Below, one piece after another: positions 29,965 through 50,821 of a stretch of DNA of 64,000 bases; position 1 is the first letter of the stretch; every line of letters begins with the position of its first letter. Location of the stretch: the NCBI GenBank assembly GCA_000724175.1, contig JPGV01000020.1:1-64000 (forward strand), given 5' to 3'. The translations under genes and the position numbers were made by a program. The notes beneath the pieces are model-generated. The model did no database searches and was not told the DNA's origin. It worked only from the letters and a program-made list of their open reading frames with translations. Origin of the DNA: [Candidatus Thermochlorobacteriaceae] bacterium GBChlB. GTDB taxonomy: Bacteria > Bacteroidota > Chlorobiia > Chlorobiales > Thermochlorobacteraceae.

Positions 29965-30025
29965 GTGTTGGCGACCCGGCCGCTGGTGCCAACACGAAAA
30001 AGGCGTCTGAACCAAGACGCCTTTT
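29965..30025. terminator. Two hairpins between convergent genes, the second a terminator
   Basis: First, GTGTTGGC (29965-29972) pairs with GCCAACAC (29988-29995). Second, AAAAGGCGTC (29998-30007) pairs with GACGCCTTTT (30016-30025), an A/T-flanked stem that can act as a terminator in both directions, for the oxidoreductase and for rpsU. Confidence 0.75.
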
Positions 30026-30051: not shown

Positions 30052-30249
30052 TTAGGAGTTGTTCTCCTCGTTGGCGCGCTGCGCCCTGCGTTTGCTGCGA
30101 GAACGCTTCAAGCGCTCCTCGACGGACTCTTTCGTAAAATAGGTGCGACGGCGGTATTCCTTCAATGTGCCGGAACGCTCATATTTTTTCTTAAAGCGTT
30201 TGAGCATCTTATCAACGGTTTCGCCTTCTGCAATTTGAACGCCTACCAA
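30052..30249 (-). CDS. rpsU: Small ribosomal subunit protein bS21, strong Shine-Dalgarno and TTG start
   Basis: 65 residues. [20 protein letters not shown] is the typical bS21 N-terminus and the C-terminal half is very basic ([11 protein letters not shown]). bS21 sits on the 30S platform near the 3' end of 16S rRNA. The start must be the TTG at 30249, because an in-frame TGA lies three codons upstream and TTG gives the conserved N-terminus. AGGAGGTGA at 30267-30259 is a nearly perfect complement of the anti-Shine-Dalgarno, while almost no other gene in the window has one. In Bacteroidetes, bS21 helps sequester the anti-SD and rpsU keeps a strong SD, suggesting feedback control; the same may hold here (inference). 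Confidence 0.95.
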
Positions 30250-30320: not shown

Positions 30321-30839
30321 TCATAGATACCGCTCTTGCAAAATACGGCTGTGATGCAGTTCGTGTCCGAGAATCACGCTGGCAAGCGCGCGCACGGTTA
30401 CGGGACTACCGGAAGCAATGCCTTGACACGCGAGTTTTTCATCGCTCATGTTTGCAAAGAGCAAGATGCTGCTTTTTCTGACCATTTCAAACTCGGCGAG
30501 CAAATCTGGCAGCGTCCGCCGTTGGAAAAGCGCATTTTTGACATAGTCGTTTTCATTGAACCCGGGCAAGGGCTGCGTCTCGCCGCGCCCAAATGCCAGT
30601 GCTCGATACGCCATCACGCGCTCGGTATCAATGATATGTCCTAACACTTCCTTGACCGTCCATTTTCCGTCAGCGTAAGCATGATCATGCTTTGCGGGCG
30701 GCAACGTTCCCCACAGGGTTAGGACTGCCGACAGCCGCGAGTGAAGGGCTTGCATCACATCGGGTTCGGTAATCATCTGTAAATAGCCGTGATAGAACGG
30801 CGCGATTTCAGACGGGTCGGCTTTTGGAATGGTTCGCAT
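30321..30839 (-). CDS. DinB-family (DinB_2) protein
   Basis: 172 residues, a four-helix bundle of the DinB/YfiT kind. Conserved features are WTVKEVLGHIIDTERVMAYR and ILGHELHHSRILQERYL; together the His residues in GHIID and GHELHH form the family's metal triad. PGFNENDYV matches the conserved loop between them. Members include thiol transferases and stress-related proteins; no specific function can be assigned. It follows the zinc-ribbon gene by 15 bp and precedes rpsU by 71 bp on the same strand, so rpsU may be the last gene of a three-gene transcript. Confidence 0.86.
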   Translation of the reverse strand: MRTIPKADPSEIAPFYHGYLQMITEPDVMQALHSRLSAVLTLWGTLPPAKHDHAYADGKWTVKEVLGHIIDTERVMAYRALAFGRGETQPLPGFNENDYVKNALFQRRTLPDLLAEFEMVRKSSILLFANMSDEKLACQGIASGSPVTVRALASVILGHELHHSRILQERYL

Positions 30840-30854
30840 ATCGGGGACGGTCGG

Positions 30855-31568
30855 TTACTCTTCGGCGGGTTTTCGTTTAGCGGTTTTACGCAAGAGTTTC
30901 AACCTCGCTTTTTTGCCCGATTCCACCACTGCGCCGTTAGGGTCGATGCTCACATTTTCCAGCAATTGTCTTGTGCCGAGCGCACGAAATTCAATGGTAA
31001 CAGCGTTCATTCCGCTTGCAGTGGTGAGTTTAGTGCGCACAATGCCGACTTCGTTGAGTCCGGCATGATAGACCGCATCGCCGACGGCGTAAATGCCTTG
31101 CGGCGAGTATGTAATGCAGTCATCTTTTTTGAGGTCGTCTAATTTTTTTTCGCGGTCGAGCTGAATTTTCCATTCTTCGACGAGCTGAACTTGGGAGCAG
31201 TTATCGCAGCGCAGCCAGTATTTGCGCTCAGTCTCAACGGGTTCATCTTCTTCGCGCGGGCGGTCGCTGGGCTGCCATTCGCCGACAAAGGTTTGTGGCT
31301 GCACCGTGCCGCAGGTCTCGCAAAAAACGCCTTTGATTTTACCGGCTAAAATCAATTCGCGCTTGCTAATCGATTGGCCATTAGGGGCGGATACATGTTC
31401 CAGCACCACCGCACCTTTGGTTTTGGCGTTCACGGACTTTCCGTTGAGGCTTTTTTTAGCCTCTTTCGCCGCGCCGACAAGGCTGACGACTTTAGCGGCG
31501 ACTTTTTTCGCTGCGCTCTTTGCTCTTGCGGCTTTCGCCCTTGTTGTTTTTTTTATCTTCTCTGCCAA
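30855..31568 (-). CDS. Unrecognised zinc-ribbon-like protein with basic tails, strong Shine-Dalgarno and TTG start
   Basis: 237 residues from the TTG at 31568. The longer open frame to 31613 is rejected because GGAAGGAGA stands nine bases before the TTG. Layout: Lys/Ala-rich N-terminal tail (KIKKTTRAKAARAKSAAKK), a middle region with FCETCGTVQ and LRCDNCSQVQ, two CxxC pairs about 43 residues apart that look like a split zinc ribbon, then a small beta domain (YSPQGIYAVGDAVYHAGLNE, VGIVRTK) resembling the basic-transcription-factor or CarD-like SH3 fold, and a basic tail ending in KRKPAEE. I know no family for it. Zinc and nucleic-acid binding are inferred from composition. It shares strand and probable transcript with DinB and rpsU, and the unusual initiation signals of rpsU. 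Confidence 0.75.
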   Translation of the reverse strand: MAEKIKKTTRAKAARAKSAAKKVAAKVVSLVGAAKEAKKSLNGKSVNAKTKGAVVLEHVSAPNGQSISKRELILAGKIKGVFCETCGTVQPQTFVGEWQPSDRPREEDEPVETERKYWLRCDNCSQVQLVEEWKIQLDREKKLDDLKKDDCITYSPQGIYAVGDAVYHAGLNEVGIVRTKLTTASGMNAVTIEFRALGTRQLLENVSIDPNGAVVESGKKARLKLLRKTAKRKPAEE

Positions 31569-31576
31569 GCGATGTT

Positions 31577-31585
31577 CTCCTTCCG
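31577..31585 (-). promoter_or_regulatory. Strong Shine-Dalgarno of the zinc-ribbon gene
   Basis: On the minus strand GGAAGGAGA precedes the TTG start at 31568 with eight bases between the sequence and the start codon. Decides the start and, with rpsU, is one of the two best SD sequences in the window. Confidence 0.8.
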
Positions 31586-31654
31586 TGAAAGCGCTCGAAT
31601 GTAAATACTCCACTTCAATTTGTCAACTCGTGTTCAAACACAGTTTTTTGTGTC

Positions 31655-33025
31655 TTACGAGGTAATCGCCGCAATTAAATCGGACTTGGTGATAATTTGA
31701 AATTCGTGTTCAGGCAGTTCAACCAGCACGGCATTATCGCGCGAGAGCTCGTCCGAGAGCGTCGTGAGCGTTGTGCCAGAGGGGACAATCGGGAACGGTT
31801 TTTCCATATAGCCAATCACCTTGTTGTGCTGCGCGTTGTCTTCGCCGAGCAAAATCGAGAGAATTTTATTTTCACTGATGCTGCCGATTTCCGCACCGTC
31901 CGAGAGAATCGGCACTTGCGAGACTTCGTTTTTCTTCATCATCTCGAATGCTTCGGAGAGCGGCGTTTCAGGTGTCGCAAAAATTAGCTGTCGTTGTCTC
32001 TTCGACGCAACGATGTCGGCGGCGGTGAGCTTTGATTTTTGCTTATCAAACGACTGCGCGAAGTTATTTTCCTTCATCCAAATGTCGTTATACATTTTGC
32101 TCACATAGCGCGCGCCCGTGTCGGTAATCATCGCAACAATGAGTGCGTTCTCGTCCAAGCGTTTGGCGTATTGCAAGGCGGCGTGCAGTGTCGCGCCCGA
32201 TGAGCCGCCGCCGAAAATGCCCTCGAGCCGCGAGAGTTCTCGTCCTGTGTGAAACGCCTCGCCGTCGGCGACCGTTACTACATCGTCAATGATGCTAAAA
32301 TCGACCGTCTTTGGAATTTTGCTGCCGCCCATGCCTTCAAGTTTGTAGAGCCCTAATTCGGCGGGCATTTTGCCGCTTCGAAAATACTCGGCGTAGGCTG
32401 AGCCAACCGGGTCTGTGCCGATAATTTGTATTGCAGGATTTCTCGACTTCAAATATCGACCGATGCCAGTAATCGTGCCGCCTGTGCCGATGGCCGTAAA
32501 AACGTGTGTTACACGCCCGTTGGTTTGTTCCCAAATTTCAGGCCCGGTGGTCTCGACATGAATTTGCGGATTGGCGTCGTTGGTAAATTGGTTTGGGTAG
32601 TAGGAATTCGGAATCGTTTTGGCAAGGTGTTCGGCGACACTGTAGCAACTGCGCGGGTCTTCGGGCTTGACAGCGGTCGGCGTAATGACCACTTCTGACC
32701 CTAAGGCGCGAAGCAAATCGATTTTTTCCTGCGAGACTTTATCGGGCATCACCATAATCGATTTGTAGCCTTTGACCGTTGCGACGAGCGCGAGTCCGAT
32801 GCCGGTGTTTCCCGCCGTCCACTCGATAATCGTGCCACCGGGTTTAATGAGTCCCTTGCGCTCCGCGTCTTCAATCATGCTAAGCGCGATGCGGTCTTTG
32901 ATGCTGCCGCCCGGATTCATAAACTCCAACTTGGCCAGCACGATAGGCTTTACTGATTTAGCGATTCGATTGAGCCGCACCATCGGCGTCTGTCCAATGG
33001 TATCGAGAATACTGTTGTGCCACAT
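31655..33025 (-). CDS. Cystathionine beta-synthase with C-terminal CBS-domain pair
   Basis: 456 residues. The catalytic half is fold type II PLP enzyme: FMNPGGSIKDRIAL carries the PLP Lys (about residue 43), TAGNTGIGLAL the substrate loop, and GTGGTITGIGRYL the phosphate loop. Residues about 335-456 form two CBS motifs (LIFATPETPLSEAFEMMKKN and VPSGTTLTTLSDEL). The length and Bateman-like tail point to cystathionine beta-synthase (serine plus homocysteine to cystathionine) rather than cysteine synthase, which is shorter. The tail often binds SAM or adenosyl compounds. No other transsulfuration gene is adjacent. Confidence 0.9.
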   Translation of the reverse strand: MWHNSILDTIGQTPMVRLNRIAKSVKPIVLAKLEFMNPGGSIKDRIALSMIEDAERKGLIKPGGTIIEWTAGNTGIGLALVATVKGYKSIMVMPDKVSQEKIDLLRALGSEVVITPTAVKPEDPRSCYSVAEHLAKTIPNSYYPNQFTNDANPQIHVETTGPEIWEQTNGRVTHVFTAIGTGGTITGIGRYLKSRNPAIQIIGTDPVGSAYAEYFRSGKMPAELGLYKLEGMGGSKIPKTVDFSIIDDVVTVADGEAFHTGRELSRLEGIFGGGSSGATLHAALQYAKRLDENALIVAMITDTGARYVSKMYNDIWMKENNFAQSFDKQKSKLTAADIVASKRQRQLIFATPETPLSEAFEMMKKNEVSQVPILSDGAEIGSISENKILSILLGEDNAQHNKVIGYMEKPFPIVPSGTTLTTLSDELSRDNAVLVELPEHEFQIITKSDLIAAITS

Positions 33026-33259: not shown

Positions 33260-33673
33260 ATGAAGACGACTTTTGTTTCACTTGCATTTGCTGCATTGGT
33301 TTTCACCATCGGCTCGCCAAGCGCTTCGGCGCAAGACAGTTCCCGAATCCGCAAAGAAGTTCAAGAGCTTCGGGAAGAAAAGCAAGAACGCCGTGAAGAG
33401 CGACGCGAACTCAGAGACGCGAGAGCTGACCGGCGCGACGCGCAACGCGACGTCAATCAAGAAAAGAGAGACCTGCGCGACGCCGTCCAGTCGGGCGATA
33501 AAGACGCGATTAAAGAGGCTCGACAAGACCTGCGCGACGCCAAACGAGAGCGCAACGATGCCAACCGCGATGTCCGCGCCGAGCGACGCGATGTTCGCAA
33601 AGAAACCCGTGATGTGCGCAAAGACCGCCGTGATGTCAAGCGCGCTGTCCGCAAATCCCAAATGCAACCGTAA
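33260..33673 (+). CDS. Exported, extremely charged Arg/Asp/Glu-rich helical protein
   Basis: 137 residues from the ATG at 33260. The signal peptide (FVSLAFAALVFTIGSPSASA) is followed by about 110 residues made almost wholly of Arg, Lys, Asp, Glu, Ala and Val in short repeats such as RRDAQRDV, KRDLRDA, ERRDVRKE and DRRDVKR. This predicts one long, salt-bridged single alpha helix or coiled coil in the periplasm. No family is recognised. It is flanked upstream by a 230-bp divergent spacer and downstream by a clear terminator, so it is a one-gene unit. Confidence 0.75.
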   Translation: MKTTFVSLAFAALVFTIGSPSASAQDSSRIRKEVQELREEKQERREERRELRDARADRRDAQRDVNQEKRDLRDAVQSGDKDAIKEARQDLRDAKRERNDANRDVRAERRDVRKETRDVRKDRRDVKRAVRKSQMQP

Positions 33674-50136: not shown

Positions 50137-50326
50137 GTCTGGAAGCGTTTGAAGTTGTGATAAGAAAGCGCGTTTGAAATTCTTGGCGCTAATCTAACAC
50201 TTTTCGCCTGACTCTGAAAGCAGCTTGACGCGCGCCTTAAGCCTTGCGTTGTATCACATAACTTTTCATCTGGCGCTGCGTATTATTGCGCACTCATCTG
50301 CCCCAACTATAATCCTGTTACATAAC

Positions 50327-50821
50327 ATGTTCTTTCAAAACAGACCTGAGTTGCTGTTCACTGCTGCGAGTATGCTCACTGCATTTATCGGAGGGAGTTT
50401 CATGTTGGAAAATTGGGTGATTGGATTTGTTATTGCTGCTTTTTTTGGTGTTCTGAACGGAGCGGGACTTTGGCTGCTGTATCGGCGCGATCGGCTTTCA
50501 CGGGCGGCGACAATTCGTCAGGTTCGAATGATGCTTTGCGACGTTGTCAACAATAAACTCGCGGTCATTTCGCTGGCGTCGCGAATGTCGACAACTGCCA
50601 ACGCAGAAGAGACATCGCAACGCCTTCAACTTATTGACGAATCGGTGAAGGACATTTCCGAGTGTATCTCGAACTTATCGGAAGAATCGCTTGACCGTTG
50701 GCATGCAAAATATGCCGCTGCTGAGTGCGAGAGAGCCACATGCATTACGCCGCGCCTCAAGAAGCGTCGTCGCCGTTTAACTGGGGCTTCACAATCACGA
50801 CCTCCTCGCGCTCAACCGTAA
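50327..50821 (+). CDS. Membrane protein with a histidine-kinase-like helical hairpin lacking the phospho-acceptor His
   Basis: 164 residues from the ATG at 50327. Two membrane helices occupy about residues 8-45 (LLFTAASMLTAFIGGSFMLE, WVIGFVIAAFFGVLNGAGLW). The soluble part includes RQVRMMLCDVVNNKLAVISL and a second helix (RLQLIDESVKDISECISNLS), a pattern like the dimerisation hairpin of histidine kinases (H-E-x-N-N-x-L), but the His position is Asp and no ATPase domain follows. The tail is short and basic and its last 65 bp overlap the convergent rqcH gene, so the true end may be less conserved. Function unknown. Confidence 0.55.
   Translation: MFFQNRPELLFTAASMLTAFIGGSFMLENWVIGFVIAAFFGVLNGAGLWLLYRRDRLSRAATIRQVRMMLCDVVNNKLAVISLASRMSTTANAEETSQRLQLIDESVKDISECISNLSEESLDRWHAKYAAAECERATCITPRLKKRRRRLTGASQSRPPRAQP

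Follow-up and report, generated by a model that had tools for sequence, protein, structure and literature searches.

A zinc-ribbon protein with a predicted PcrA/UvrD-type tudor domain is encoded upstream of rpsU in Chlorobia and related genomes

The closest described relative of the protein considered here is the C-terminal tudor domain of the helicases PcrA and UvrD (PF21196). In PcrA, each of the residues H681, W684, K712 and L714 is required for the pulldown of RNA polymerase (RNAP; PMC5397179), and the partner of the domain is a TGE-tipped hairpin present in both RpoB and UvrB; [VIL]-D-x-x-T-G-E-[VIL]-[VILT] is given as the helicase interaction motif (PMC8318588). The beta1 region is where Mfd and CarD bind, and the tudor domain of Mfd has no apparent sequence homology to that of PcrA (PMC5397179). 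A second described system concerns rpsU, the gene for ribosomal protein bS21. McNutt et al. (2023; PMC9976891) tie an extended Shine-Dalgarno (SD) sequence of about -13 kcal/mol to bS21 autoregulation, in Flavobacterium johnsoniae and by prediction in Chlorobia; the idea of SD-driven translation of rpsU under bS21 shortage, Chlorobia included, was already put forward there.

The window (the whole stretch of DNA that was analysed, 64,000 nucleotides from Candidatus Thermochlorobacteriaceae bacterium GBChlB) carries on its minus strand a gene for a zinc-ribbon protein, here named ZnR, in the following arrangement.

31655 to 33025, minus strand: PLP-dependent cysteine synthase/CBS-type enzyme carrying a CBS domain, present 5' of ZnR in almost every Chlorobia locus
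31598 to 31626 (read 31626-31598), minus strand: sigma70-like promoter, TTGACA-17-TACATT, with 10 of 12 consensus matches
31576 to 31584 (read 31584-31576), minus strand: SD-like GGAAGGAGA, its AGGAG core 8 nt from the ZnR TTG, pairing with the anti-SD at -9.4 kcal/mol
30858 to 31568, minus strand: ZnR gene, a 237-residue zinc-ribbon/tudor protein, from TTG 31568-31566, with stop TAA at 30855-30857 (open reading frame and orthologues)
30321 to 30839, minus strand: DinB_2 (YfiT-like) gene between ZnR and rpsU, absent here from the other family members checked
30052 to 30249, minus strand: rpsU (bS21), the conserved partner gene, with a TTG start and the SD AAGGAGGTGA at 30265-30256, -13.4 kcal/mol

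ZnR is a genuine gene, and the original prediction of a minus-strand frame upstream of DinB_2 and rpsU, beginning at TTG behind an SD-like sequence, is borne out in its coordinates. The start is placed at TTG 31568 rather than at the upstream GTG 31613 because the promoter-like site overlaps that GTG; an element of the TATATT/TACATT type also lies 5' of the ZnR gene in relatives. Conservation of the CBS-domain cysteine-synthase-like gene farther upstream was seen among the Chlorobia loci. Beyond it, at 33260-33673, an open reading frame encodes a small secreted-looking protein in which Arg/Asp/Glu repeats such as RRDVRKDRRD predominate.

The distribution of ZnR and the constancy of its downstream neighbour are revealing. 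Members of the family are present in 60 of the 61 genomes searched among the genome of origin and its relatives. In a sample of 394 genomes spanning the GTDB phylum, 154 have the family, some 65 of these lying outside the order. The loci read were 80 named ones, from a scan of all species with patterns derived from Chlorobia, and 40 from distant genomes. In every locus with a visible downstream side (123 of 123, a count that includes some closely related genomes), rpsU follows ZnR on the same strand; two loci end at a contig edge. The gap between the two genes is 185 nt or less in 121 of the 123; the exceptions are L157 (902 nt) and the window itself (605 nt), where DinB_2 has been inserted. 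More specifically, of the three-gene synteny first suggested, the ZnR-rpsU part holds in all 123 loci, a far stronger link than was guessed at the outset although it does not run through the SD, while the DinB gene is an insertion outside the conserved synteny. The inserted gene belongs to the YfiT-like kind and does not encode DNA polymerase IV. In 20 genomes lacking the ZnR family, rpsU is present with no ZnR-like frame adjoining it, and genomes with Bacteroidia-like bS21 sequences are without ZnR. The E. coli operon rpsU-dnaG-rpoD offers a precedent for rpsU in the company of non-ribosomal information genes. Because rpsU follows ZnR wherever the downstream side can be seen, an overlooked partner in transcription or translation is suggested.

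Across the Chlorobia loci examined, rpsU begins with TTG (GTG in one) behind an SD of -11.5 to -13.6 kcal/mol, in agreement with the autoregulation of bS21 proposed for Chlorobia in PMC9976891. The original prediction had suggested extending this scheme to ZnR, which would join rpsU in an SD-dependent regulon turned on when bS21 is short; it pointed to the TTG start and to an SD that it took to be, apart from that of rpsU, the sole strong one in the window. The ZnR SD (-9.4 kcal/mol) falls well below that of rpsU (-13.4 kcal/mol) and does not reach the extended class, which begins at about -13 kcal/mol. An SD-like site stronger than that of ZnR (-10.0 kcal/mol) precedes an internal ATG of the frame at 50225-50821, whose start is uncertain, so that the ZnR SD is not alone in the window. 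Among the 349 open reading frames of a 430-kb portion of the genome, 13 reach -9 kcal/mol or lower, against 0-8 with permuted anti-SDs, and ZnR ranks about 10th of the 349, a ranking made with uncurated starts and the usual anti-SD sequence, which was assumed because a search of the assembly for a 16S gene found none. The ZnR SD is thus probably real and fairly strong but unexceptional, being equalled or exceeded at other genes. Some close relatives do combine TTG with an SD of -6.5 to -9.5 kcal/mol, as the regulon would have it, and others have no SD. Orthologues that start with ATG and lack an SD had been named beforehand as the finding that would count against the idea, and this is what Chlorobiaceae present: ATG in 70 of 70, with a best SD of -4.3 and a median of +1.2 kcal/mol (n = 70), and 0 of the 70 starts at -6 kcal/mol or beyond. 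Membership of ZnR in such a regulon is accordingly very improbable, and a link between ZnR and rpsU by way of a shared SD was rejected on its rank and on the 70 SD-less orthologues. Unlike the autoregulated rpsU, ZnR has an SD that is weaker and unconserved, and it goes unmentioned in the part of PMC9976891 considered here.

The ZnR protein divides into three parts.

31452 to 31565, minus strand: Lys/Ala-rich arm at the N terminus, residues 2-39, predicted to be helical; Chlorobiaceae lack it and other relatives have a short one
31170 to 31337, minus strand: zinc ribbon, residues 78-133, with C83, C86, C121 and C124 (sequence and AlphaFold model)
30948 to 31097, minus strand: predicted PcrA/UvrD-type tudor domain, residues 158-207, with H168, L171, R200 and L202 (profiles and alignment)

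The AlphaFold model (pLDDT 77, pTM 0.46) comprises a helical basic arm at 2-39, a zinc ribbon at about 81-131 and, at 165-203, a small beta barrel. Basic tails, two CxxC pairs and a small beta domain had been anticipated, and all three are recovered in the Lys/Ala-rich N-terminal tail and basic C-terminal tail, the pairs C83/C86 and C121/C124, and the modelled barrel. The family can do without the arm, which Chlorobiaceae lack and which is short elsewhere. Of the 49 aligned members, 32 keep all four zinc-ligand cysteines; the 17 that have lost the ligands form a single clade (17 tips, support 0.89). Most of the ligand-free members (among L142-L181) also have a weak rpsU SD, L148 (-13.1 kcal/mol) being the exception. 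A coupling of ligand loss to loss of the extended rpsU SD was considered and dropped: with a single clade and L148 breaking the rule, the two losses amount to one event and not to evidence.

The C-terminal domain is assigned, from profile and alignment evidence, to the PcrA/UvrD type of tudor domain. Searches of the window protein against Pfam, NCBIfam and PHROGs returned nothing usable, and no Pfam or NCBIfam model recognises it, just as the original prediction of a protein without a named family had it. The window protein has no match to PF21196 and does not reach its gathering score, and the assignment therefore runs through its relatives. No Pfam model other than PF21196 is matched by many members; 19 of the 49 match it weakly, at E<=1, and one relative, at locus L110, exceeds the curated score (26.0 bits against a cut-off of 23.9, E 8.2e-6). 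Supporting this assignment, an independent profile built from 30 UvrD tudor domains of the same phylum gave 117 matches at E<=10 among 14,427 open frames from the loci, of which 109 belong to the ZnR family, a family that makes up 0.9% of the frames scanned. Alignment of the ZnR and UvrD-tudor profiles with hhalign was in register over the whole barrel at P 0.0005, although hhalign's own probability for it is only 33%. The modelled barrel is tudor-sized; Foldseek searches with two AlphaFold models gave no match below E 0.001, their best SH3, tudor and KOW matches being weak, and searches of PDB sequences with family profiles gave nothing significant.

ZnR resembles the PcrA/UvrD tudor domain in sequence profile, in barrel length and in its positions for His, an aromatic or hydrophobic residue, Lys/Arg and Leu. 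It differs in having no helicase (at 237 residues it contains no SF1 helicase core), in the zinc ribbon that precedes the tudor domain and in being encoded with rpsU; in the lineage of the window, a basic helix also stands before the tudor domain. Mfd RID, CarD/CdnL, RapA and NusG likewise carry a small SH3/tudor-like barrel in a gene-expression protein, but none of them is among the Pfam matches of ZnR; the CarD/Mfd RID model, PF02559, appears neither among the matches of the window protein nor among the 25 families most often matched by the 49 members.

The residues through which PcrA contacts RNAP can be followed into ZnR. The UvrD-tudor profile matches PcrA in 1pjr (profile positions 6-54 to residues 672-721), and by the numbering of this match H681, W684, K712 and L714 correspond to H168, L171, R200 and L202 of the window protein. 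Among the 49 aligned members, His occupies position 168 in all, Lys or Arg position 200 in all and Leu position 202 in all, and position 171 is Trp in 38, Leu in 10 and Phe in one; the window protein has His, Leu, Arg and Leu. On the polymerase side, RpoB of the same genome contains IINTETGELI, apparently in the corresponding insert and close to the helicase interaction motif. The earlier impression of an RNA-polymerase or nucleic-acid-binding protein gains from this pairing of a UvrD-type tudor domain, its RNAP-binding residues kept, with a zinc ribbon.

From these comparisons we infer that RNAP is the most likely partner of ZnR. ZnR and rpsU would form a two-gene unit in which ZnR serves the machinery of gene expression as a small adaptor. 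Its tudor domain would dock on a beta hairpin with a TGE tip, above all the one in the SI1 insert of RNA polymerase beta; the zinc ribbon and basic arms would then touch either nucleic acid or a protein, the latter on RNA polymerase or on the 30S subunit, and co-expression with bS21 would couple the amount of ZnR to the supply of 30S subunits, which may be why the two genes are paired. This account of ZnR as an RNAP-docking adaptor co-expressed with bS21 is tentative, and we place it somewhat short of an even chance. Several observations weigh against docking on RNAP: the equivalent of W684 is Leu in Chlorobia and its aromatic character is lost, IINTETGELI has N where the motif consensus has D, and the constant neighbour of ZnR is rpsU and no RNAP gene. 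Tudor domains, moreover, have varied binding partners.

The surface by which the PcrA tudor domain binds RNAP also binds UvrB (PMC8318588), which counts against RNAP as the partner and opens the way to a role in repair, in which ZnR would modulate DNA repair or UvrD because it competes with UvrD/PcrA for binding to the TGE hairpins in RpoB and UvrB. The shared tudor class and contact residues, and the UvrD encoded in the same genome, are consistent with such competition, which would however leave the zinc ribbon without explanation and sits poorly with linkage to rpsU rather than to repair genes; we regard it as improbable.

The main rival lies on the ribosome side, where ZnR would act with bS21 as an assembly or platform factor of the 30S subunit, loading bS21 or helping to hold the 3' tail of 16S rRNA, with its tudor domain bound to a ribosomal or other hairpin. 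That rpsU alone is a constant neighbour throughout the phylum argues for this, as does the presence of RplX (uL24) among the B. subtilis proteins carrying the TGE motif (PMC8318588), and the size of the zinc ribbon, the basic tails and the single loss of zinc ligands (17 of 49) recall the C+ and C- forms of ribosomal proteins. A ribosomal role nevertheless appears somewhat less likely than docking on RNAP, given that the C-terminal domain retains the residues of PcrA that contact RNAP, that ZnR is missing from the genomes with Bacteroidia-like bS21 and that structural searches brought up no bacterial ribosomal protein. A combination of the two, in which ZnR would hold RNA polymerase with its tudor domain, at the SI1 hairpin of beta, and the 30S platform round bS21 with its zinc ribbon, as a dedicated bridge and transcription-translation coupling factor of the Chlorobi side of Bacteroidota, is a speculative and unlikely extension of RNAP docking.

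The tudor class itself is known. The predicted combination of a zinc ribbon with a UvrD-type tudor domain, and its constant pairing with rpsU among the genomes compared within one GTDB phylum, are described neither in Pfam or NCBIfam nor in the open-licence literature, where no account of the family was found. That a protein without a name accompanies rpsU so strictly through much of a phylum hints strongly at a component of gene expression that has been missed, and the tudor assignment turns a 'hypothetical protein' into a testable claim, namely binding to RNAP beta through four named residues. Were RNAP the partner, ZnR would add to the tudor-based RNAP factors, and would do so in a group that already initiates translation in an unusual way; were it the 30S subunit, the protein would bear on the loading and autoregulation of bS21.

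Three minor observations concern the rpsU side of the locus and individual records. A likely rpsU terminator, AAAAGGCGTCT-TGGTTC-AGACGCCTTTTT, was recognised by eye at 29997-30025 on the minus strand, and is absent from the list of the consensus scan. One genome (G166) carries two near-identical ZnR-rpsU pairs, L178 and L179, near contig ends, representing either a duplication or an assembly artefact. The ZnR of L111, recorded under Armatimonadetes bacterium SJ842, is 78% identical to that of L110 from Chlorobiota and its rpsU is similar, and the Armatimonadetes label is therefore probably wrong.
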